DNA of 64,000 nt from Lentzea tibetensis (GTDB lineage Bacteria > Actinomycetota > Actinomycetes > Mycobacteriales > Pseudonocardiaceae): NCBI RefSeq assembly GCF_007845675.1, contig NZ_VOBR01000010.1:1-64000 (forward strand), written 5' to 3'. The stretch's first letter is position 1. Every line of letters starts with the position of its first letter. Made by a program: the position numbers and the translations under genes. Below are positions 27,646-36,263 of this stretch, piece after piece. Under the pieces are notes generated by a model. The model had not been told where the DNA came from and ran no database searches. It saw only the letters and a list, made by a program, of their open reading frames with translations.

Positions 27646-28034
27646 CCCTTCTCGTCACCGCGTGCGGCGTGCGTCCGACCGGCGTGCTGACCGGTGGCCC
27701 CGCGCCGACCGTCAGGTCGAACGAGGTGACGCTCTACTTCCTGTCCGCCGACGGCGCGCTGGTGCGGCGCACCCGCGTGATCACCGGCGAGTTCACCGTC
27801 GCCTCACCGCTGCAGGCGCTGCTGACCGGGCCGAACGAGCAGGAGCGGGCCGACGGGCTGACGACCGACCTGCCGATCACGACCGCCCCGGTGGAGTTCC
27901 GCGACACCGTGGTCGTCGTGCCGATCGAGGTCGGCTCGCTCACCGGTTCCGGCTACGCCCAGCTCAGCTGCACCGCGACGAGCGCGGGACTGCGCGTCGC
28001 GGGCACGAAGCCGGGCTTCGCCTGCGACGGCTAG
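27555..28034 (+). CDS. GerMN-domain lipoprotein downstream of the sensor kinase
   Basis: The frame encodes a hydrophobic signal with lipobox LLVTAC and then a GerMN-like domain (EVTLYFLSADGALVRRTRVI, SPLQALLTGPNEQE, AQLSCTA). Such lipoproteins often accompany actinobacterial two-component systems as accessory sensors. The start is a problem: a fine GGAGGGAGG lies at 27606-27614, but no ATG, GTG or TTG follows it in this frame. The nearest is the ATG at 27555, giving a 22-residue arginine-rich lead, the cysteine at residue 37, and a 91-base overlap with the kinase gene. Confidence 0.75.
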   Translation: MGERAPARRHDRSGQPTGGRRAVRVALALVALLVTACGVRPTGVLTGGPAPTVRSNEVTLYFLSADGALVRRTRVITGEFTVASPLQALLTGPNEQERADGLTTDLPITTAPVEFRDTVVVVPIEVGSLTGSGYAQLSCTATSAGLRVAGTKPGFACDG

Positions 28035-28041
28035 TGGTGTT

Positions 28042-28977
28042 CTAGACGCCCGACTCGGGGTAGCCGATGTACGGCGCGGACACGTGGTCCAGCCGCCCGC
28101 GGATCTCGGGCGTCAGCACGACGTCGAGCACGGACAGCGTCTCGAGCAGCTGGTCGACGTTGCGCGCGCCGACGATCGGCGCCACCACACCCGGCCGGTC
28201 GCGCACCCACGCCAGCGACACGCCGAGCGCGGTCGTCTCGAGCAGCTCCGCCGCGGCCGACACGGCCTCGACGATCAGCGCGGTGCGGTCGGCGCGCAGG
28301 TGGTGGCCGACGTACCAGCGGAAGAAGTCGCTGTTCTCCCTGGCCGCGGGCACGCCCTTGCGGTACTTGCCGGTGAGCACGCCGCGCCCGAGCGGCGCCC
28401 ACGGGAGCACGCCCATGCCGAGCTCGGTGACCGCGGGCACGACCTCGCGCTCGATGCCGCGTTCCAGCAACGAGTACTCGACCTGCGTCGTCACCAGCGG
28501 CACCGGGCCGAGCGCGGCGCGGACGGTCTGCCAGCCCGCGTAGTTGCACACGCCCACGTTGCGCACGCGACCACTTGAGACGGCCGTCTCGAGAGCGCTC
28601 AGCGTCTCCTCGACGGGCGTCTTGTGGTCCCACACGTGCAGCTGCCACAGGTCGACGTGGTCGGTGCGCAACCTGCTCAGTGAGGTGTCCAAAGAGGACA
28701 GCAAGTGTGCGCGGGTGGCGTTCGCCTCGCCCGGCCGCACGCCGGCGGCCTTGGTGGCGAGCACCACGTCCGAGCGCGCGATCCCGTTGTCCCACAACTG
28801 TCCTACGACGGTCTCGCAGCGGCCGCCGAGGTAGATGTCGGCGGTGTCGATCAGCGAGCCGCCCGCCTCGATGAAGGCGTGCGCCTGTTTCGTCGCGTCG
28901 GCGACGTCCGTCCACGTCGCGGTCCCGAGTCCGAGCGGGTGCACTTCGACGTCCGGTGCGAGCTTCCTGCGGTCCAC
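28042..28977 (-). CDS. Aldo/keto reductase
   Basis: 311-residue NAD(P)H-dependent (beta/alpha)8 barrel. The catalytic tetrad is complete: D44 and Y49 in SLIDTADIYLG, K76 in VLATKAAG and H114 in WQLHVWDHKT. The C-terminal cofactor segment reads PIVGARNVDQL. Closest in style to the YajO/Tas group acting on unknown carbonyls. GTG at 28975-28977. It diverges from the first P450 gene across 63 bases and is convergent with the GerMN lipoprotein gene. A role in the neighbouring aromatic cluster is possible but only by position. Confidence 0.92.
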   Translation of the reverse strand: MDRRKLAPDVEVHPLGLGTATWTDVADATKQAHAFIEAGGSLIDTADIYLGGRCETVVGQLWDNGIARSDVVLATKAAGVRPGEANATRAHLLSSLDTSLSRLRTDHVDLWQLHVWDHKTPVEETLSALETAVSSGRVRNVGVCNYAGWQTVRAALGPVPLVTTQVEYSLLERGIEREVVPAVTELGMGVLPWAPLGRGVLTGKYRKGVPAARENSDFFRWYVGHHLRADRTALIVEAVSAAAELLETTALGVSLAWVRDRPGVVAPIVGARNVDQLLETLSVLDVVLTPEIRGRLDHVSAPYIGYPESGV

Positions 28978-29040
28978 CAGCGCACGCTAACTGCGAGAGA
29001 TGTGGACTTTAGTCGAGCTTGTCGTCCCTAGCATCAACAG

Positions 29041-30153
29041 ATGAGCTCCGTCGATCCGATCGCACTGCCCGACGGTCGCAAGGTGTGGCTGGTCTCCCGC
29101 TACGACGAGGCCAGGCAGGTGCTCACCGATCCGCGGCTGTCCAACGACACGAGGAAGATGGGCGACCAGGCGCCGCTCGCGGCACTGCCGGAGTCGGTGC
29201 AGGCCGCGGTGGCGAGCGACATGCTCAACTGCGACCCGCCCGCGCACACCAGGCTGCGCAGGCTGGTCGCGCCGACGTTCACCGTGCGGCGCATCGCCGA
29301 GCACCGGCCGCGGATCGAGCGCATCGCCCACGAGCTGCTGGACGCGTGCGGCGCCGAGGCGGACCTCGTCGAGGACTTCGCGGGACCGCTCGCCACGCGG
29401 GTGCTCGGTGAGCTGATCGGCATGGATCCCGAGGACGCGCCGGACGTGCGGCGGTGGTCCGACATGTTCGTCATGGAGCTGCTCACGCTCAGCGAGGAGG
29501 TCATGGCGGCCACCGCGAGCCTGTCCGAGTACGCGGCGGACCTGGTGCGGCGGCGCCGCGACGAGCCGCGCGACGACATGGTCACGCGACTGATCTCGTT
29601 GCGCGACAGCGGGGACCGGCTCAGCGACGACGAGCTCAGCTCGATGGTGTTCATCCTGATGATCGCCGGCCAGACGGCCACCGCGCAGCTGCTGGCCAAG
29701 GGTCTGCACCTGCTGCTGACCAACCCGGACCAGCTGACCGCGCTGCGCGAAAAGCCGGACCTGGTGCCGTCCGCGGTGCAGGAGACGCTGCGGATCGACC
29801 CGTCGCTGCAGATGTCGGCGTTCCGGATGGCGACCGAGCCCGTCGAGGTCGACGGCATCACGATCCCGCGCGGCGACATCGTGCTGTGCTCGCTGCTGGC
29901 CGCGAACCACGACGCGGAGCGCTTTCCCGAGCCGGAGCGGTTCGACGTCCGGCGCCGCGACAACCAGCACCTGGCGTTCAGCCACGGCATCCACCGCTGT
30001 CTCGGCGCGAACCTGGCCGAGCTGCAGGCGCAGGTGGGCATCGCCGTCTTCGCGGAACGGTTCCCGCACGCCCTTCTGCGCGCGGAAGACGTGTCCTGGC
30101 GCCAGACCCCGCTCGTCAACGTGCTGACAACACTTCCCGTGGAGCTCTCATGA
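29041..30153 (+). CDS. Cytochrome P450 (short N-terminus, altered I-helix motif)
   Basis: 370-residue bacterial class I P450. The haem-ligand loop is FSHGIHRCLG with Cys320 and the K-helix motif is ETLR (248-251). Two oddities: the protein begins directly at the first beta sheet, lacking the roughly 35 residues before it in most bacterial P450s, and an in-frame TAG four codons upstream of the ATG rules out a longer start. The I helix reads AGQTAT (209-214) where AGx(D/E)T is expected, so both the acid and the oxygen-activating Thr are shifted or missing. Coupled to the second P450 by ATGA. Confidence 0.95.
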   Translation: MSSVDPIALPDGRKVWLVSRYDEARQVLTDPRLSNDTRKMGDQAPLAALPESVQAAVASDMLNCDPPAHTRLRRLVAPTFTVRRIAEHRPRIERIAHELLDACGAEADLVEDFAGPLATRVLGELIGMDPEDAPDVRRWSDMFVMELLTLSEEVMAATASLSEYAADLVRRRRDEPRDDMVTRLISLRDSGDRLSDDELSSMVFILMIAGQTATAQLLAKGLHLLLTNPDQLTALREKPDLVPSAVQETLRIDPSLQMSAFRMATEPVEVDGITIPRGDIVLCSLLAANHDAERFPEPERFDVRRRDNQHLAFSHGIHRCLGANLAELQAQVGIAVFAERFPHALLRAEDVSWRQTPLVNVLTTLPVELS

Positions 30154-31340
30154 AACTGCTCAACCGCGCGTTCATGCACGACCCGTACCCGTCGCTCGCG
30201 GAGATGCGGGAGTCGTGCGCGGCGGTGCCGGTCGAGAACGGCGGCTTCCGCATGTGGGTGCTCACCCGCTACGAGGACGCACGGGCGGTGCTCGCCGACC
30301 CGTCGCTGCACCGGGACCTGGTGAAGCACCGGCACGAGGTGGTGAAGCAGAACCTCGTCAACGGCGAGCGCAAACCCAAGCTGCCGAGGGAACTGCGGCG
30401 CAGCATGCTCGACCAGGACGGTGAGGACCACCGCCGGTTGCGCGGACTGGTGAGCGGGTTCTTCAGCCCCAGCAGGCTGAAAGCGGCACGGCCCCGCGTC
30501 GAGGAGGTGGCGCGCGGGCTGCTCGACGCCATCCCGTCCGGCGAGGTCGACCTGATCGAGGCCTACGCACGGCCGCTCCCGGTGATCCTCCAGTCGGAGC
30601 TGCTCGGCGTGCCCGTGGACGCCCAGGACCGCTTTCCGTTGTGGGAGACCGCGATTCTCACCGCGCCGACCAAGGAGGAGGTCGAGGACGCGGGCCGCCA
30701 GCTGCACGCGTTCGCCAGGGAGATCATCGAGCTCAAGCGCGCCGAGCCCGCCGACGACCTGTTCACCACGCTGGTGCGGGCGGGCGACGAGGGTGTGCTC
30801 GCCGAGATGGAGGTGATCTCGATGATCACCCTGCTGCTGATCGCCGGACTCGAACCGACCAGCGTCATCGGCAGCGGCGTGCTGACGCTGGTGCAGCACC
30901 CGGAGCAGCTGGCTCGCCTGCGCGCCGACCGGTCACTGCTGCCGGGCACCATCGACGAGGTCCTGCGCTACGAGACGCCGTTCCGCATGCTGACCCCGCG
31001 CTACCTCGACCACCCGCTCGAGCTCGCGGACGTCACGATCCCCGCGGGCGAACTGATCCTGGTGTCCACCGGCGCGGCGAACCGCGATCCCGCCAAGTAC
31101 GCCGAGCCGGACCGGTTCGACGTGGCCCGCTGTCCCAAGGGACACCTGGGTTTCAGCCACGGCAACCACCGCTGCCTCGGCGCCGAGCTCGGCCGGATGC
31201 AGACGACCGTCGCGCTCGACGTGCTGCTGGACACCTTCCCCAGCATCGAGCTCGCCGTCGCGGCGGAGGACGTCCGGTGGCGTCCAGGCATGTTCATGCG
31301 CCGCCTGGACACCCTCCCGGTCAAGCTCAGCAGGGACTAA
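30150..31340 (+). CDS. Cytochrome P450 (proline in place of the I-helix threonine)
   Basis: 396-residue P450 of normal length. Haem loop FSHGNHRCLG with Cys342, K-helix EVLR (270-273), and an N-terminal region beginning HDPYPSLAEMRE as in CYP107-like enzymes. The I helix is AGLEPT (232-237): the acid Glu235 is kept but the usual Thr is Pro236. Its start overlaps the first P450's stop. Its TAA shares bases with the TAG of the convergent MoaF-like gene. Redox partners are not encoded nearby. Substrate unknown; an aromatic acid or amino acid derivative is a guess from the neighbours. Confidence 0.95.
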   Translation: MKLLNRAFMHDPYPSLAEMRESCAAVPVENGGFRMWVLTRYEDARAVLADPSLHRDLVKHRHEVVKQNLVNGERKPKLPRELRRSMLDQDGEDHRRLRGLVSGFFSPSRLKAARPRVEEVARGLLDAIPSGEVDLIEAYARPLPVILQSELLGVPVDAQDRFPLWETAILTAPTKEEVEDAGRQLHAFAREIIELKRAEPADDLFTTLVRAGDEGVLAEMEVISMITLLLIAGLEPTSVIGSGVLTLVQHPEQLARLRADRSLLPGTIDEVLRYETPFRMLTPRYLDHPLELADVTIPAGELILVSTGAANRDPAKYAEPDRFDVARCPKGHLGFSHGNHRCLGAELGRMQTTVALDVLLDTFPSIELAVAAEDVRWRPGMFMRRLDTLPVKLSRD

Positions 31341-31645
31341 GCGGGAATCAGCTCACCCGTCATGTGCACCAACGAGTTGTCGGCGACGAGGGTCAACCAC
31401 GTGTTGACCACTCGCCGTCCGAAGTCCTGCACCGACACGATCGACGCGCTCGGCTCGGTGAAGCTCACCACGAACACCTCGGACGCCACCGGGACCACCG
31501 ACACGTCCACCGTCTCGTCGACGTGACGGACGGCCTCGGTGGCGCCGGTGTAGCTCAGCTTCCCCGGCACGCTGAGGTCGTAGTCGAAGGCCCAGTCGCC
31601 GTAGTCGACGCGGTAGTTGAGCGGGTGGGACAAGGGAGTTCTCAT
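31337..31645 (-). CDS. Small MoaF/lipocalin-like protein
   Basis: 102 residues with an alternating beta-strand pattern and the segment EVFVVSFTEPSASIVSVQDF that I associate with MoaF-related calycin-fold proteins, a fold group that also includes phenolic acid decarboxylases. It could bind or act on a small aromatic molecule; this is inference. ATG at 31643-31645 overlaps the methyltransferase stop, so it is the third gene of the ammonia-lyase operon. Its stop overlaps that of the convergent P450 by the shared CTAA. Confidence 0.65.
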   Translation of the reverse strand: MRTPLSHPLNYRVDYGDWAFDYDLSVPGKLSYTGATEAVRHVDETVDVSVVPVASEVFVVSFTEPSASIVSVQDFGRRVVNTWLTLVADNSLVHMTGELIPA

Positions 31646-32328
31646 TTCTTCCTGGCGACAGTGAGCCCATCGGAGATCGGGAGGATCACGACGTCCATCG
31701 ACTCGTCGGCGGCGAGCACGCTGTTGAACGCCGCGAGCGCGTGCGCGCTGTCCCGCATCACGCCGGGGTCCGCGTAGTCCGGTGCCATGACGTAGCCGTT
31801 GAACAGGACGTTGTCCACGAGCAGCAGGCCACCGGAGCGCAGCCTGGGGTGCAGCAGCCGGTAGTAGTTCTCGTAGTTGTCCTTGTCCGCGTCGAGGAAC
31901 GCGATGTCGACCACGAGGTCGGCAGGCAGCGACCGCAACGTCTCCAGCGCCGGGCCGACGCGGAAGTCGATGACGTCGGTGAGGCCTGCCTTCTCCCAGT
32001 GCTCCCGCGCGATCCCCCAGTCGTCGGTGACGTCGCAGGTGATCACCCGGCCGCCCGGCGCGAGGCCGCGGGCCATCGAGAGCGCGGAGAGACCGGTGAA
32101 CGTGCCGACGTCGATCGCGACGGTGGCGCCGGTCAGCGACGTGAGCAGGGTCAGCAGGGTGGCCTGCTCGGCCGGGACCTGCATGAGCGCCGGGTGACCG
32201 AGCTCGGCCGTGCGGTCGAGCAGGCTCGCCGTCACCGGGTCCAGCGGCGACGAGTGGCGCACCATGTAGTCCCGCAGCGCCTGGGTGACCGGCAGGTGCT
32301 TGACCTCGCCGAACCGCGGCGGCGTCAC
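31642..32328 (-). CDS. Class I SAM-dependent O-methyltransferase, CCoAOMT-like
   Basis: 228-residue catechol-type methyltransferase. SAM-binding motif I is AIDVGTFTGLSALSMA (about 71-86), the metal-binding motif is FLDADKDNYENY (about 144-155), and VDNVLFNGYV completes the divalent-metal site. Enzymes of this family methylate a hydroxyl next to another, for example caffeate or caffeoyl-CoA. GTG at 32326-32328 overlaps the ammonia-lyase stop. This pairing suggests that the lyase product, after hydroxylation, is O-methylated. Confidence 0.94.
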   Translation of the reverse strand: MTPPRFGEVKHLPVTQALRDYMVRHSSPLDPVTASLLDRTAELGHPALMQVPAEQATLLTLLTSLTGATVAIDVGTFTGLSALSMARGLAPGGRVITCDVTDDWGIAREHWEKAGLTDVIDFRVGPALETLRSLPADLVVDIAFLDADKDNYENYYRLLHPRLRSGGLLLVDNVLFNGYVMAPDYADPGVMRDSAHALAAFNSVLAADESMDVVILPISDGLTVARKK

Positions 32329-33908
32329 GCGGTCGCCGCCCGGACCGCGCCGGAGCGGATGAGCTCGACGACCTCGGCGATGTCGCCGTCCAGCCTGCGG
32401 TCCCGGTCGAGGAACGTGACCTTCGAGCGCACCAGCGAGTGCACCGCGCGGGTGCCGTCGGCCAGGCCCTCCGCGCCGCGCAGGTCGATCGCCTGGCAGT
32501 GCGCCATCAGCACGATCGCCGCGACCTCGCGGACCAGCTCCACGACCGTCCTGGCGTCGCGGGCCGCGATCGTGCCCATGCTGACCTTGTCCTGGTTGTG
32601 CGCCTCGGTCGAGCGGGAGAACGACGTCGCGGGCATGGTGAGCTTCAGCGCCTCGGCGGTGTACGCGGAGGCGGCCAGCTGGGTGCCCTTGAAGCCGTGG
32701 TGCAGGCCGGTCTCGTCGTCGTCGGCGAGGAACGGGATGAGGTTCGGCGTCAGCCCGTTGTTGAACTTCTCGTCCACCACCAGTGCCAGCTGACGGTCGA
32801 GCAGGTCGCCGACGCTCGCCACCGCCGTCTTCAGCGAGTCCATCGCCTGACCGATGTGACCGCCGTAGAAGTTGCCGCCGTTGCGCACCGCGCCCGCGTC
32901 CACGTCGAACAGCGGGTTGTCGTTCGTCGAGTTGATCTCCACCTCGACCATGCCGCGCGCCCAGTCCAGGGTGTCGTGCAGGACTCCGACGACGTGCGGC
33001 GCGCAGCGCAGCGAGTAGCGGTTCTGGATCGGGTGCTCCAGCTTGAGGAACCTGTTGTCCCCCAAGGCCGTGTTCGCCCGCAGCACGTGGTGGTCGTCGC
33101 GGGTGAGCGTGGATCCCTCCAGCAGCGACCGGATCGTCCCCGCGCTGCGCACCTGACCCGCGTGCGCCTTCTGCGCGTGGATGAACGGGTCGAAATGGCC
33201 GCGGTTGCCGAGCAGCGCCTCCATGCCCAGCGCGGTGCACACGTCCGCCACGTGCGCGATCTCGGCCGCGTCGGCGCACGCCAGCGTGGCGAAGCCGGAC
33301 ATGAACGACGTGCCGTTGATGAGCGCGAGGCCTTCCTTGGGCCCCAGCACCAGCGGGTCCAGCCCGCACTCGCGCAGCGCGTCCGCCGCGTCGACGACCG
33401 AGCCGCGGAACCACACGTCGCCCTCGCCGGTCAGCGCGGACGCCAGGTAGCACAGGGGAACCAGGTCACCGCTCGCGCCGACGGAGCCGCGTTCCGGGAT
33501 GACCGGCACGATGTCGTGGCGGAGGAAGTCCAGCAGCTGCCGCACGACCTCGGGGCGCACGCCGGAGTACCCGCGCGCCAGGCAGTTCGCGCGCACGAGC
33601 ATCGTCGCGCGCACCACGTCCCGCGCGGCACCGGGGCCGCTGCCGTTGAGGTGGTAGCGGATCAGGTTGCGCTGCAGCGCCACGACCTTGTCCGGGCTGA
33701 TCTGCCTCGTGCAGCTGTCACCGAAGCCGGTGGTGATGCCGTACATCGGCTGCCCGGTCGCGATCAGGTCGCGCATGAGCTTGACGGACTCGTTCATGCG
33801 CAGCTCAGCGCTCGGGTCCACGGCGACGTCCAGTACGCCGGGTTCACGGGCCACAACGGCGGTGGCCGTGACAGTCAGATCATCGGAACCAACGTGAAGT
33901 GACGGCAC
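32325..33908 (-). CDS. Aromatic amino acid ammonia-lyase (MIO enzyme, tyrosine/phenylalanine/histidine type)
   Basis: 527-residue lyase forming an unsaturated acid and ammonia from an aromatic amino acid. The prosthetic MIO group arises from A145-S146-G147 in GSVGASGDLVPL. The catalytic Tyr is Y56 in MYGITTGFGD; later motifs are INGTSFMSG, NRYSLRCAPHVVG and INSTNDNPLF. The selectivity loop reads NLIRYHLNGSG with His86-Leu87, the pair that in Rhodobacter TAL favours tyrosine, while bacterial HutH has Ser-His. An aminomutase cannot be excluded. GTG at 33906-33908 is my choice among several starts. No other histidine-degradation gene is near. Confidence 0.88.
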   Translation of the reverse strand: MPSLHVGSDDLTVTATAVVAREPGVLDVAVDPSAELRMNESVKLMRDLIATGQPMYGITTGFGDSCTRQISPDKVVALQRNLIRYHLNGSGPGAARDVVRATMLVRANCLARGYSGVRPEVVRQLLDFLRHDIVPVIPERGSVGASGDLVPLCYLASALTGEGDVWFRGSVVDAADALRECGLDPLVLGPKEGLALINGTSFMSGFATLACADAAEIAHVADVCTALGMEALLGNRGHFDPFIHAQKAHAGQVRSAGTIRSLLEGSTLTRDDHHVLRANTALGDNRFLKLEHPIQNRYSLRCAPHVVGVLHDTLDWARGMVEVEINSTNDNPLFDVDAGAVRNGGNFYGGHIGQAMDSLKTAVASVGDLLDRQLALVVDEKFNNGLTPNLIPFLADDDETGLHHGFKGTQLAASAYTAEALKLTMPATSFSRSTEAHNQDKVSMGTIAARDARTVVELVREVAAIVLMAHCQAIDLRGAEGLADGTRAVHSLVRSKVTFLDRDRRLDGDIAEVVELIRSGAVRAATA

Positions 33909-34227
33909 GGCGGCAGGCAACCACAGCGCACGCGAATCGCATCGCCTCCGCACCCCGTTCTGGCCGAAGGATGCCCGACGTCTCAGCCGGGCGCACCGAA
34001 AGAGGCGGGCCGTGCGGGCGGACGGTCCCTCACCGGAAACCCCCGCGCCCACGCGGAGTCCCGGCCCACCGCATCGACCCGCACGGCCCCGCCCACCGGC
34101 GCAGCCGCAGCGCCGGCATGATGGGTCCAGCGGGCTCGTCCGGACCCAAACGACTTTGTTCGGGCGCAGAGTAACCACGTGAGACGATCGGTGGGAAGCG
34201 AAACAGCCCCCGGTGTGGCCGAAAGTT
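33909..34227. other. Noncoding gap between aroE and the ammonia-lyase operon
   Basis: About 320 bases with no credible gene. It must hold the promoter of the minus-strand ammonia-lyase operon and the 3' end of the aroE transcript. I find no strong hairpin terminator and no clear -35/-10 pair. It marks the right edge of the accessory block. Confidence 0.5.
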
Positions 34228-35037
34228 TCAGCCGAGGGCTTCGCGCAGGGCCACCCGCATCACGTCGCGCGGGGCCGAATGGCCGGTGAACTGCTCCACC
34301 TGGCCGAAAGCCTGGTGCAGCAACATGTCCAGCCCGGTCGCGAGCTTGCTCCCGGTGCGCTCGACCGCGGTCGCGACCGGCGTCGGCCACGGGTGGTAGA
34401 TCACGTCCAGCACGAACGGGGCCCGCGCCAGCGCGTCCGCGACCGTCGCGGTCGCCTCCGCAGGAACGGTGCTCACGAGAACGTCCGAAGTGGACGCGAG
34501 CTCACCCAGGTCCACATCGGACAGCCGCAGCACGGAGACCTCGACGCCGACGCGCGCGGCGCACTCGACGGCCTCCTCGGCACGCGAAGGTTCGCGCACC
34601 ACGAGGGAAACGTCCTTCACGCCCAGCTCGGCGAACCCGGCCAGCGTCGCCGTCGCGGTGCCGCCCGCGCCGAGCAGCACGCCGCGGCCACCACCGGAGA
34701 AGCCGACCGAGCGCAACGCACCCACGACACCGTCCACATCGGTGCAGTCAGCGCGCCAGCCGTTCTCCGTGCGCACCAAGGTGTTCGCGGCACCGACGGC
34801 AGCGGCGCGGGCGGTCACCTCGGTGGCGACCGCCAGCGCCGCGCGCTTGTTCGGCATCGTGCACGACAGGCCGACCCACTCGGGGCCGAGTCCCGCCAGC
34901 AACGCGGGCACTTCCTCAGCCACGCACTCGATGCGCTCGTACGTCCAGCCGGACAGCCCGAGCGCCGCGTACGCGGCGTTGTGCAGCACCGGGGAAAGCG
35001 AGTGAGCGACCGGCGAACCGATCACCGCTGCCCTCAC
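34228..35037 (-). CDS. aroE: Shikimate dehydrogenase
   Basis: Reduces dehydroshikimate with NADPH. The 269 residues show the substrate motif IGSPVAHSLSPVLHNAAY, VGLSCTMPNKRAA with the catalytic Lys, the dinucleotide loop LLGAGGTATATLAGF and the C-terminal ATGLDMLLHQAFGQVE. The usual motif is NVTxPxK; here it is SCTMPNK, with Ser for Asn. GTG at 35035-35037 shares one base with the mltG stop. Its position after alaS-ruvX-mltG is the standard actinobacterial order; aroC, normally close by, is 13 kb away here. Confidence 0.95.
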   Translation of the reverse strand: MRAAVIGSPVAHSLSPVLHNAAYAALGLSGWTYERIECVAEEVPALLAGLGPEWVGLSCTMPNKRAALAVATEVTARAAAVGAANTLVRTENGWRADCTDVDGVVGALRSVGFSGGGRGVLLGAGGTATATLAGFAELGVKDVSLVVREPSRAEEAVECAARVGVEVSVLRLSDVDLGELASTSDVLVSTVPAEATATVADALARAPFVLDVIYHPWPTPVATAVERTGSKLATGLDMLLHQAFGQVEQFTGHSAPRDVMRVALREALG

Positions 35038-36263
35038 TAGAAAACGCCCTCCGCCCGTGCCTTCGCGTCGTAGATGTCGTGCTGTTCCTGGTTGTCCGAG
35101 AAGCAGGACGTGCCGTCCTTCTGACACTTCACGAAGTAGATCATGTTGCCGTCCGCCGGCTTCAGCGCGGCCTCGATGGCCTTGATGCTCGGCGAGCCGA
35201 TCGGCGTCGGCGGCAGACCACCCGTGCTGTAGGTGTTGTACGCACCGGCGGCCTGGCGGTTCGCGTCGGACGTGCGGATGTGCGGCTGGTTCAGCTTGTA
35301 GTTGACCGTGGAGTCGAACTGCAGCTTCATCGGCAGCTTCAACCGGTTGTAGATGACCCGCGAGACGCTGCCGAAGTCCTTCTCGATGCCTTCCTTCTCG
35401 ATCAGGGAAGCCATGACCAGCACCTCGTACGGCCGGAAGCCCGTGTCACCGGTGTTGCTCGGGATGCCGTAGCCCTGCAGCTTCTGCGCGGACGCCGTGA
35501 TCACACCGCGGAGCATCTCCACCGCCGAGACACCGGGGTTGACCTGGTACACGCCGCGCATGATCAGGCCTTCGAGCCGGAACTCCGGCGGCGCGGCCTT
35601 CACGTCCGCGATCGCCCAGTCCGGCACGCCCAGCGCGCCGGGGTCCGCCGTCTCGGCCGCGGCCTTGATCTCCTCGACCGGCACGCAGACCTTCTGGCCG
35701 CCGCGTTCCGTGCAGCTCGCCTCGGACAGCTGGGTGTAGATGCCCTTCACGACCTTGCCGTCGCCACCGGTCAGGTCGCGCAGGATCACGCCGCCCACGA
35801 CCTGCAGCGCGCCGACCTTCGTCTTCGGGTCGATCATGCGCGCGACCGCCGACGCACCGGACATGCGCGTCTTCATGACGTAGAAGCCGGGCTGGATCGC
35901 GGTGACCCGCTGGTCGGTCTTGCTGGCCTCGGTGAACGCGCGGGGACTCGCCACCACGCCGTTCTTCTGCAGCGTCGACGCGATCTCGCTCACCGGGTCG
36001 CCGTCCTTGACCTCGATGATGACGTCGCTCTCACCGGTGCCGGAGTAGTCGTCCCACGAACCGATGCCGCGCAGCTCGCGGTAGCCGTAGTAGGCGCCGC
36101 CGGCACCCAGTGCCAGCACCATCGCCACGACGATCCACAGGACCGTCTTCTTCTGCTTGCGCTTCTTGCGGGCCGCCGCCGCACGTGCCTTGCTCTTGGT
36201 GCTGGGGCGACGCTCACGCTCAACATCAACGTCGGGGTCGAACAACCCGAGATCGTCGCTCAA
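35037..36263 (-). CDS. mltG: Endolytic transglycosylase MltG
   Basis: Membrane-bound lytic transglycosylase that cleaves nascent glycan strands. The 408 residues have a basic cytoplasmic head (to about 38), one membrane segment (40-60), a LysM-like subdomain and the YceG catalytic domain. The catalytic Glu is E289 in MASLIEKEG; LEGLIMRGVYQV and GGLPPTPIGSPS are further family motifs. TTG at 36261-36263 is accepted as start because AAGGA lies seven bases upstream and no better codon exists. It follows ruvX after three bases. Confidence 0.95.
   Translation of the reverse strand: MSDDLGLFDPDVDVERERRPSTKSKARAAAARKKRKQKKTVLWIVVAMVLALGAGGAYYGYRELRGIGSWDDYSGTGESDVIIEVKDGDPVSEIASTLQKNGVVASPRAFTEASKTDQRVTAIQPGFYVMKTRMSGASAVARMIDPKTKVGALQVVGGVILRDLTGGDGKVVKGIYTQLSEASCTERGGQKVCVPVEEIKAAAETADPGALGVPDWAIADVKAAPPEFRLEGLIMRGVYQVNPGVSAVEMLRGVITASAQKLQGYGIPSNTGDTGFRPYEVLVMASLIEKEGIEKDFGSVSRVIYNRLKLPMKLQFDSTVNYKLNQPHIRTSDANRQAAGAYNTYSTGGLPPTPIGSPSIKAIEAALKPADGNMIYFVKCQKDGTSCFSDNQEQHDIYDAKARAEGVF

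Follow-up and report, generated by a model that had tools for sequence, protein, structure and literature searches.

The DNA analyzed here, called the window, is a stretch of 64,000 nucleotides from contig NZ_VOBR01000010.1 of Lentzea tibetensis, and it contains a compact set of six genes. On the minus strand is a gene for a Kv-beta-like aldo-keto reductase (AKR; 28042..28977; Pfam Aldo_ket_red, 200.5 bits), which is divergent from a plus-strand cytochrome P450 gene, P450A (29041..30153, 370 aa), with 63 bases between them. P450A and the next gene, P450B (30150..31340, plus strand, 396 aa), share an ATGA overlap of their reading frames, and the two proteins score 114 and 94 bits with the Pfam p450 model. 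The stop codon of P450B (31338-31340) overlaps tail to tail with that (31337-31339) of a minus-strand gene for a MoaF-like small beta-barrel protein (31337..31645, 102 aa; MoaF_like PF22036, 48.9 bits, cut-off 27). The same strand carries a class I O-methyltransferase (OMT) of the catechol/caffeoyl-CoA O-methyltransferase (CCoAOMT) type (31642..32328, 228 aa; Methyltransf_3 PF01596, 159 bits), which overlaps the MoaF-like gene by ATGA at 31642-31645, and a 4-methylideneimidazole-5-one (MIO) ammonia-lyase (32325..33908, 527 aa, GTG start at 33908; Lyase_aromatic PF00221, 568 bits), which overlaps the OMT by GTGA at 32325-32328. All six reading frames are intact. We suggest that this is probably a compact, tyrosine-started hydroxycinnamate biosynthetic cluster arranged around P450B and the AKR, with a second P450 and the OMT.

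A first-pass annotation had listed five of these genes with their positions, their translational coupling and the convergence of the two strands stop on stop, all of which the overlapping bases bear out. The five genes are real, but the AKR was overlooked. Since the AKR is conserved with the other five, the set spans 28042 to 33908. The statement that no CoA ligase, nonribosomal peptide synthetase (NRPS) or polyketide synthase (PKS) is near also stands, as none of the 123 AMP-binding and none of the 49 ketosynthase matches of the genome lie inside the 64-kb window. A search of 27900-34300 for a promoter-like consensus found none.

The set is conserved in other genomes. We searched 391 genomes of the family, including that of the window, with P450B (E <= 1e-90). 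There are matches in 48 genomes, the window's included, and the identity is 67-70% in three others, i.e., G112 and G285, which belong to one genus, and Amycolatopsis decaplanina (G309). All three carry the lyase, AKR, P450A and OMT nearby. The P450A orthologs (49-54% identity) are found in G112, in G285 and twice in A. decaplanina, and the AKR is about 59% identical in the three genomes. In G112 and G285 the order lyase-AKR-P450B-P450A is consecutive and the OMT lies a few kb off; an AMP-ligase gene adjoins the OMT in G112, and an open reading frame (ORF) of similar size is at that place in G285. The A. decaplanina locus (L013) holds the lyase, OMT, AKR, P450B, two P450A relatives, a further P450 and two MoaF-like genes, together with a berberine-bridge-type oxidase, a LuxR-type regulator and a major facilitator superfamily (MFS) exporter. 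The first-pass annotation counted a failure of its five genes to co-occur elsewhere as a refutation, and the conserved set shows that this refutation fails. A P450B search through a class-wide sample of 394 genomes matched none of the 393 others at E <= 1e-105, a limit that would miss members as distant as that of G253. No description of the gene combination was found in the literature, where only open-access papers were covered, so this absence is weak. Upstream of its AMP-ligase-like ORF, G285 has another, long ORF (L136, 10772-14623) whose start resembles by eye an NRPS condensation domain; G112 has no such ORF in this position.

Of all parts of the set, the P450B-AKR pair recurs most widely. 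P450B and more remote homologs in the family form a clade with a support of 100/100 in one tree and 91 SH-aLRT in a larger, quick tree. Besides the window, this clade has 13 loci (G112, G285, three in G309, G051, G015, G231, G333, G322, contig C1 of G019, G253 and G182), at each of which 13-40 kb of sequence was examined. An AKR gene (50-59%, tblastn) is present at 12 of the 13 and is the adjacent gene at 11; in L013 it is about 2 kb from P450B, and in the window P450A stands between them. As controls, 18 stretches of 20 kb around non-clade P450s (17 fetched plus L204, which holds a P450 of G019 contig C2, 47% identical and outside the P450B clade) contain no AKR, no lyase and no OMT at E <= 1e-12. 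Likewise, no AKR is found at 18 outgroup P450 loci with 1.5-kb flanks (L131 being shorter).

What accompanies the pair differs from locus to locus. An MIO lyase is present at six of the 13 (G112, G285, two of G309, G322 and G019), and these lyases are of two types. Those of the second type (second G309 cluster, G322 and G019) are 33-36% identical to the window lyase and have His-Leu at the R. sphaeroides tyrosine ammonia-lyase (TAL) position. Three of the loci with a lyase (G112, G322 and G019) also have an AMP-ligase gene alongside. In G015, G231, G333 and the third G309 locus (L199, L200, L202, L206), the pair stands in the order SDR-AKR-P450B, with a short-chain dehydrogenase/reductase (SDR) and a PapA-type acyltransferase. 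At one of these four loci (G231; L200) a synthase with ketosynthase, acyltransferase, dehydratase, ketoreductase and acyl carrier protein domains (KS-AT-DH-KR-ACP) is complete, and DH and KR domains occur in one G253 frame; the domain order of the synthase suggests that it makes an aromatic acid. The second A. decaplanina cluster (L138, 6340-14178, G309 contig C68) contains the other type of lyase, a P450, a P450B relative, an AKR and a B12 radical SAM C-methyltransferase of the KedN5 family (1018 bits, cut-off 700). The regular partnership of P450B and AKR next to differing suppliers of aromatic acids predicts one shared reaction. We tentatively propose, at less than an even chance, that the two enzymes form an undescribed aryl-acyl module. 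In such a module the Thr-replaced P450 would yield an oxidized, perhaps dearomatized or quinonoid, intermediate that the dedicated AKR reduces, with the aromatic acid supplied variously by the two lyase types or an aromatic-type PKS.

Both P450s keep the ExxR motif (ETLR/EVLR) and the haem Cys (FSHGIHRCLG/FSHGNHRCLG), the latter being present in 17 of 17 aligned P450 rows. Their I helices are altered. In P450A (AGQTAT) the acid and the Thr of the acid-Thr pair are both absent, and P450A and its four close orthologs all read AGQTA. In P450B (AGLEPT) the Glu is retained and the Thr is replaced by Pro; its 13 relatives have Glu-Pro in 11 cases, Glu-Ala in G019 and Glu-Val in G182. By a simple pattern search, which may miss some, the canonical motif occurs in 21 of 28 other P450s of the window genome (28 fetched of 46 found) and in 18 of 26 relatives fetched with P450B, and the remaining eight are all in the P450B clade. 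A reading of the two enzymes as plainly ordinary ring hydroxylases is thus not supported, since in every ortholog examined P450A lacks both residues of the pair and P450B lacks the Thr. The closest solved relative of P450B is PDB 8w6z. P450A is about 23-30 N-terminal residues shorter than solved P450s and has an in-frame stop just upstream; its orthologs in G112 and G285 and one of those in L013 have their own starts aligned with residue 1. The window AKR has all four residues of Asp-Tyr-Lys-His, which we take to be the AKR catalytic tetrad. In the AKR group (n=13, with the unrelated G253_1573 set aside) the Asp is found in 12 members and the Tyr, Lys and His in all 13. The OMT contains DADKDNY at 146 and DNVLFNG at 172, the motifs with the Asp and Asp-Asn ligands of the catechol/CCoA OMT metal site, and its relatives in the PDB include 5lhm, 3tr6 and the CCoAOMT entries 5kva/1sui.

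The lyase is an MIO enzyme by its PF00221 score and by the Ala-Ser-Gly at residues 145-147, which is present as first annotated when counted from the GTG start at 33908. Its best NCBIfam model is the BagA_FevW TAL (NF041222) with 736.1 bits, which misses the equivalog cut-off of 1000 and outscores the histidine ammonia-lyase (HAL) models. At motif 2 the window lyase has Gln (...HNQDKV), and the HAL-type lyase of the same genome has Glu (...MQEDHV); according to PMC3992019, Gln is characteristic of TAL and phenylalanine ammonia-lyase, and Glu of HAL. The His-Leu that the first-pass annotation placed at the selectivity position does not align there without a gap. His86-Leu87 misses the position by one column, and the ungapped pair is Tyr85-His86, both when chained to R. 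sphaeroides TAL and against Phe-Leu relatives, which align gap-free at this column. In R. sphaeroides TAL the two residues of the pair precede the Gly of ...ASG by four and three positions, and a second record has Phe in place of that His. Since the aligned pair is Tyr85-His86, we rejected His-Leu as proof of a TAL. Tyr-His is not decisive against a TAL either, because FlxA is described in PMC3992019 as a TAL whose motif 1 resembles that of HAL. PMC6692506 assigns to FevV/BagA the deamination that turns tyrosine into trans-coumaric acid. Judging from these signatures, the window lyase is most likely a tyrosine ammonia-lyase.

We propose the following roles from the gene families, and the substrate, the reaction order, the P450B/AKR chemistry and the product are all part of this proposal. 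The MIO lyase would convert tyrosine to p-coumarate, and P450A and P450B would oxidize this hydroxycinnamate or a derivative. The AKR may reduce a carbonyl or quinonoid intermediate formed by P450B, and the metal-dependent OMT would methylate the resulting catechol-type hydroxyl. The MoaF-like barrel, as an optional accessory, might bind, isomerize or decarboxylate an intermediate. The functional core would be the P450B-AKR pair acting on aryl-acyl units, here placed behind a tyrosine ammonia-lyase. Of the phenylpropanoid-like route in the first-pass annotation, the parts that survive are those carried by the conserved set, the TAL model score, the Gln motif and the OMT metal motifs; the His-Leu argument, plainly ordinary P450s and the MoaF-like protein as a needed step are not supported as written. 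To our knowledge, few bacterial phenylpropanoid-type clusters have been described. The findings from this study define a six-gene set and a sister species in which the site of the block is naturally empty.

The MoaF-like protein is predicted to be an 8-stranded barrel (pLDDT 89.6), which among solved folds matches 5hal (E 5e-6) and MoaF 4q51 (E 0.018) best. A sequence search of solved structures returned ASF1 matches alone, at E 0.2 and above. Its profile matches phenolic acid decarboxylases (PADs) at 96.1% (E 3e-9, 85 columns), and no PAD is among the best 50 of the 1312 fold matches of the model. In the comparison with PAD, whose catalytic residues we take to be Tyr, Tyr, Arg and Glu, the Glu of the SW/FTEP strand is aligned and the alignment of Tyr/Arg depends on the register; the two A. 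decaplanina copies have Asp in place of that Glu. The gene is common to the window set and the A. decaplanina set, was not found in G112/G285 by tblastn or with the PF22036 model, and stands at only two of seven lyase-linked loci. Its reading as a needed step is thus not supported, and we take it to be an optional accessory. We know of no tested function for the MoaF_like family. Among 298 family genomes the protein query matched that of the window alone, and the PF22036 model matches 83 of 391. Among the neighbourhoods examined, a TAL stands near such a match in three genomes: that of the window, that of A. decaplanina, with two MoaF-like genes, and that of G267, where the match is a true PAD. 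The two PF22036 matches of G006 are unrelated to this gene set. The protein was rejected as a cluster marker. In G267 one gene lies between the TAL relative and the true PAD. At L069 (9572-12854) a TAL relative is followed by a GCS2/YbdK-type carboxylate-amine ligase and then a true PAD, a different small TAL operon.

Next to the lyase lies aroE for shikimate dehydrogenase (34228..35040, minus strand; 374 bits, cut-off 235), which is outside the pathway set and, as a conserved neighbour, fixes the insertion site. In the sister species G193 (locus L065) the 4.3-kb block AKR-P450A-P450B-MoaF-OMT (28035..32327) is absent at the same place. By blastn, the window and G193 are 82% identical on both sides of the missing AKR-to-OMT block; the lyase is kept, and its stop overlaps the stop of a lipoprotein gene. 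All 25 genomes of the genus have aroE, and the lyase adjoins it in the window and G193 only. In 21 of the other 23 the lipoprotein gene is 3' of aroE, and it was not seen in the examined flank of two. Either an insertion in the lineage of the window or a loss from G193 would give this picture.

In the lyase tree, the window lyase groups with one G193 lyase, next to a pair formed by a second TAL (TAL2) of both genomes, and the A. decaplanina lyase groups with a Streptantibioticus lyase. The P450A and P450B trees agree in order (window, A. decaplanina, G112/G285). Since these trees agree and a single clade for the lyases of the three cluster types is rejected by the approximately unbiased (AU) test (p = 3.5e-5, for a group named after the tree was seen), it seems that the tailoring P450s moved as a unit and that the lyase was exchanged. 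The same test rejects the idea that lyase and P450s were always co-inherited. TAL2 of the window genome (contig C24; 74%) lies with AMP-ligase and acyl-CoA dehydrogenase-like genes (L064, 9357-15602) and has a similar counterpart (L066) in G193. A third TAL of the sister genome (L067, 9693-12631) adjoins a Rieske oxygenase of the LigXa/VanA kind.

TAL loci elsewhere were considered as clusters of this kind and rejected, as L013 alone of 27 loci has the set and the rest carry just the lyase. Six of these (L010, L020, L022, L024, L025 and L028) show a distant OMT, P450 or AKR, and L018 and L029 are short stretches. On the Pseudonocardia plasmid pLS2-2 (L133, 10409-25545), a lyase relative (52.6%) stands among carboxyltransferase, biotin carrier, KS, ACP and P450 genes.

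Several points weigh against a tyrosine-started cluster built on the P450B-AKR pair. The lyase scores below the BagA/FevW cut-off, phenylalanine is a possible substrate, and the specificity of such lyases is said in PMC3992019 not to be predictable from sequence alone. With one lyase clade rejected and the lyase thus exchanged, the substrate may differ between clusters. No CoA ligase is beside the window set. G182 (L118/L207), whose P450 is within the P450B clade (97 SH-aLRT with G019 in the larger tree), lacks both an AKR and a lyase in the 13.4 kb examined, up to the contig end, and G051 has the pair with neither lyase nor synthase. Moreover, it is not obvious where a reduction by the AKR would fit into a plain route from coumarate through caffeate to ferulate. 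Such a plain route, from Tyr to p-coumarate, to caffeate by a P450 and to ferulate by the OMT, with decarboxylation to vinylphenol by the MoaF-like protein, would suit the TAL and OMT types. The bacterial P450 mutant CYP199A2 F185L turns coumarate into caffeate, as mentioned in PMC7011507, and TAL followed by decarboxylation is known from the bagremycin pathway as outlined in PMC6692506. The MoaF-like profile matches PADs, and in G267, of the same genus, a TAL relative and a true PAD occur together. However, the route accounts for neither the AKR nor the second P450, the missing I-helix residues of both P450s speak against it, and so do the MoaF-like gene at two of seven loci and the lack of PAD among the best 50 of 1312 fold matches. 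We regard it as unlikely.

Phenol coupling by the P450s would join a hydroxycinnamate to another one or to some other phenol, giving a lignan-like dimer, with the AKR or the MoaF-like protein handling a quinone methide. The addition of nucleophiles to hydroxystyrenes by PADs has a quinone-methide mechanism. The altered I helices of both P450s would suit coupling, though ordinary hydroxylases such as P450eryF show altered I helices as well. The A. decaplanina cluster has its berberine-bridge-type oxidase, and PADs are reported in PMC5488193 to add nucleophiles across hydroxystyrenes. Because the P450B-AKR pair also stands beside a polyketide synthase, and no dimer is known, we think coupling quite improbable. 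A doubtful but somewhat better prospect is a decorating group: an unlinked ligase would activate the acid, which would then be joined to a peptide, polyketide or sugar made by genes in another part of the genome. All 123 AMP-binding and all 49 ketosynthase matches lie outside the window, and a linked AMP-ligase is present in relatives of the cluster, but a search limited to position found no link to any such locus. This possibility is compatible with, rather than opposed to, the tyrosine-started cluster. That the genes are a decaying remnant of a larger cluster with no present function would agree with the absence of the block in the sister species. It would also agree with the genes at 28042-33908, among which no LuxR-type regulator or MFS exporter was seen, although the A. 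decaplanina cluster has both. The six intact frames, conserved catalytic residues and tight overlaps make this very improbable. The cluster around the P450B-AKR pair is therefore the explanation that we favor.

Among known systems, the saccharomicin hydroxycinnamate genes of Saccharothrix espanaensis, among them Sam5, resemble the window in that a Pseudonocardiaceae TAL (Sam8) feeds ring hydroxylation. They differ in using a flavin-dependent HpaBC-type hydroxylase, as summarized in PMC7011507, whereas the window has P450s, an OMT and an AKR. The bagremycin/ferroverdin cluster shares the lyase family (BagA/FevV; best NCBIfam model of the window lyase, 736 bits) and a likely first product, coumarate. 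Its UbiX/UbiD decarboxylase, 3-amino-4-hydroxybenzoic acid (3,4-AHBA) synthesis and condensing ligase, described in PMC6692506, have no counterpart beside the window lyase, and the account of the cluster in that paper names no P450-AKR pair. Phenolic acid decarboxylases (PF05870) are similar in profile to the MoaF-like protein, which retains the Glu of the SW/FTEP strand. Unlike them, it is about 60 residues shorter, its Tyr/Arg are not clearly aligned, and they are not among its best 50 of 1312 fold matches. It has the family and fold of MoaF/MoaF_like (PF22036, 4q51, 5hal) and differs from these in being found here in two of the clusters. Finally, the window OMT shares its family and metal-site motifs with the CCoAOMT/catechol O-methyltransferases (PF01596), and its own catechol-type substrate is putative.

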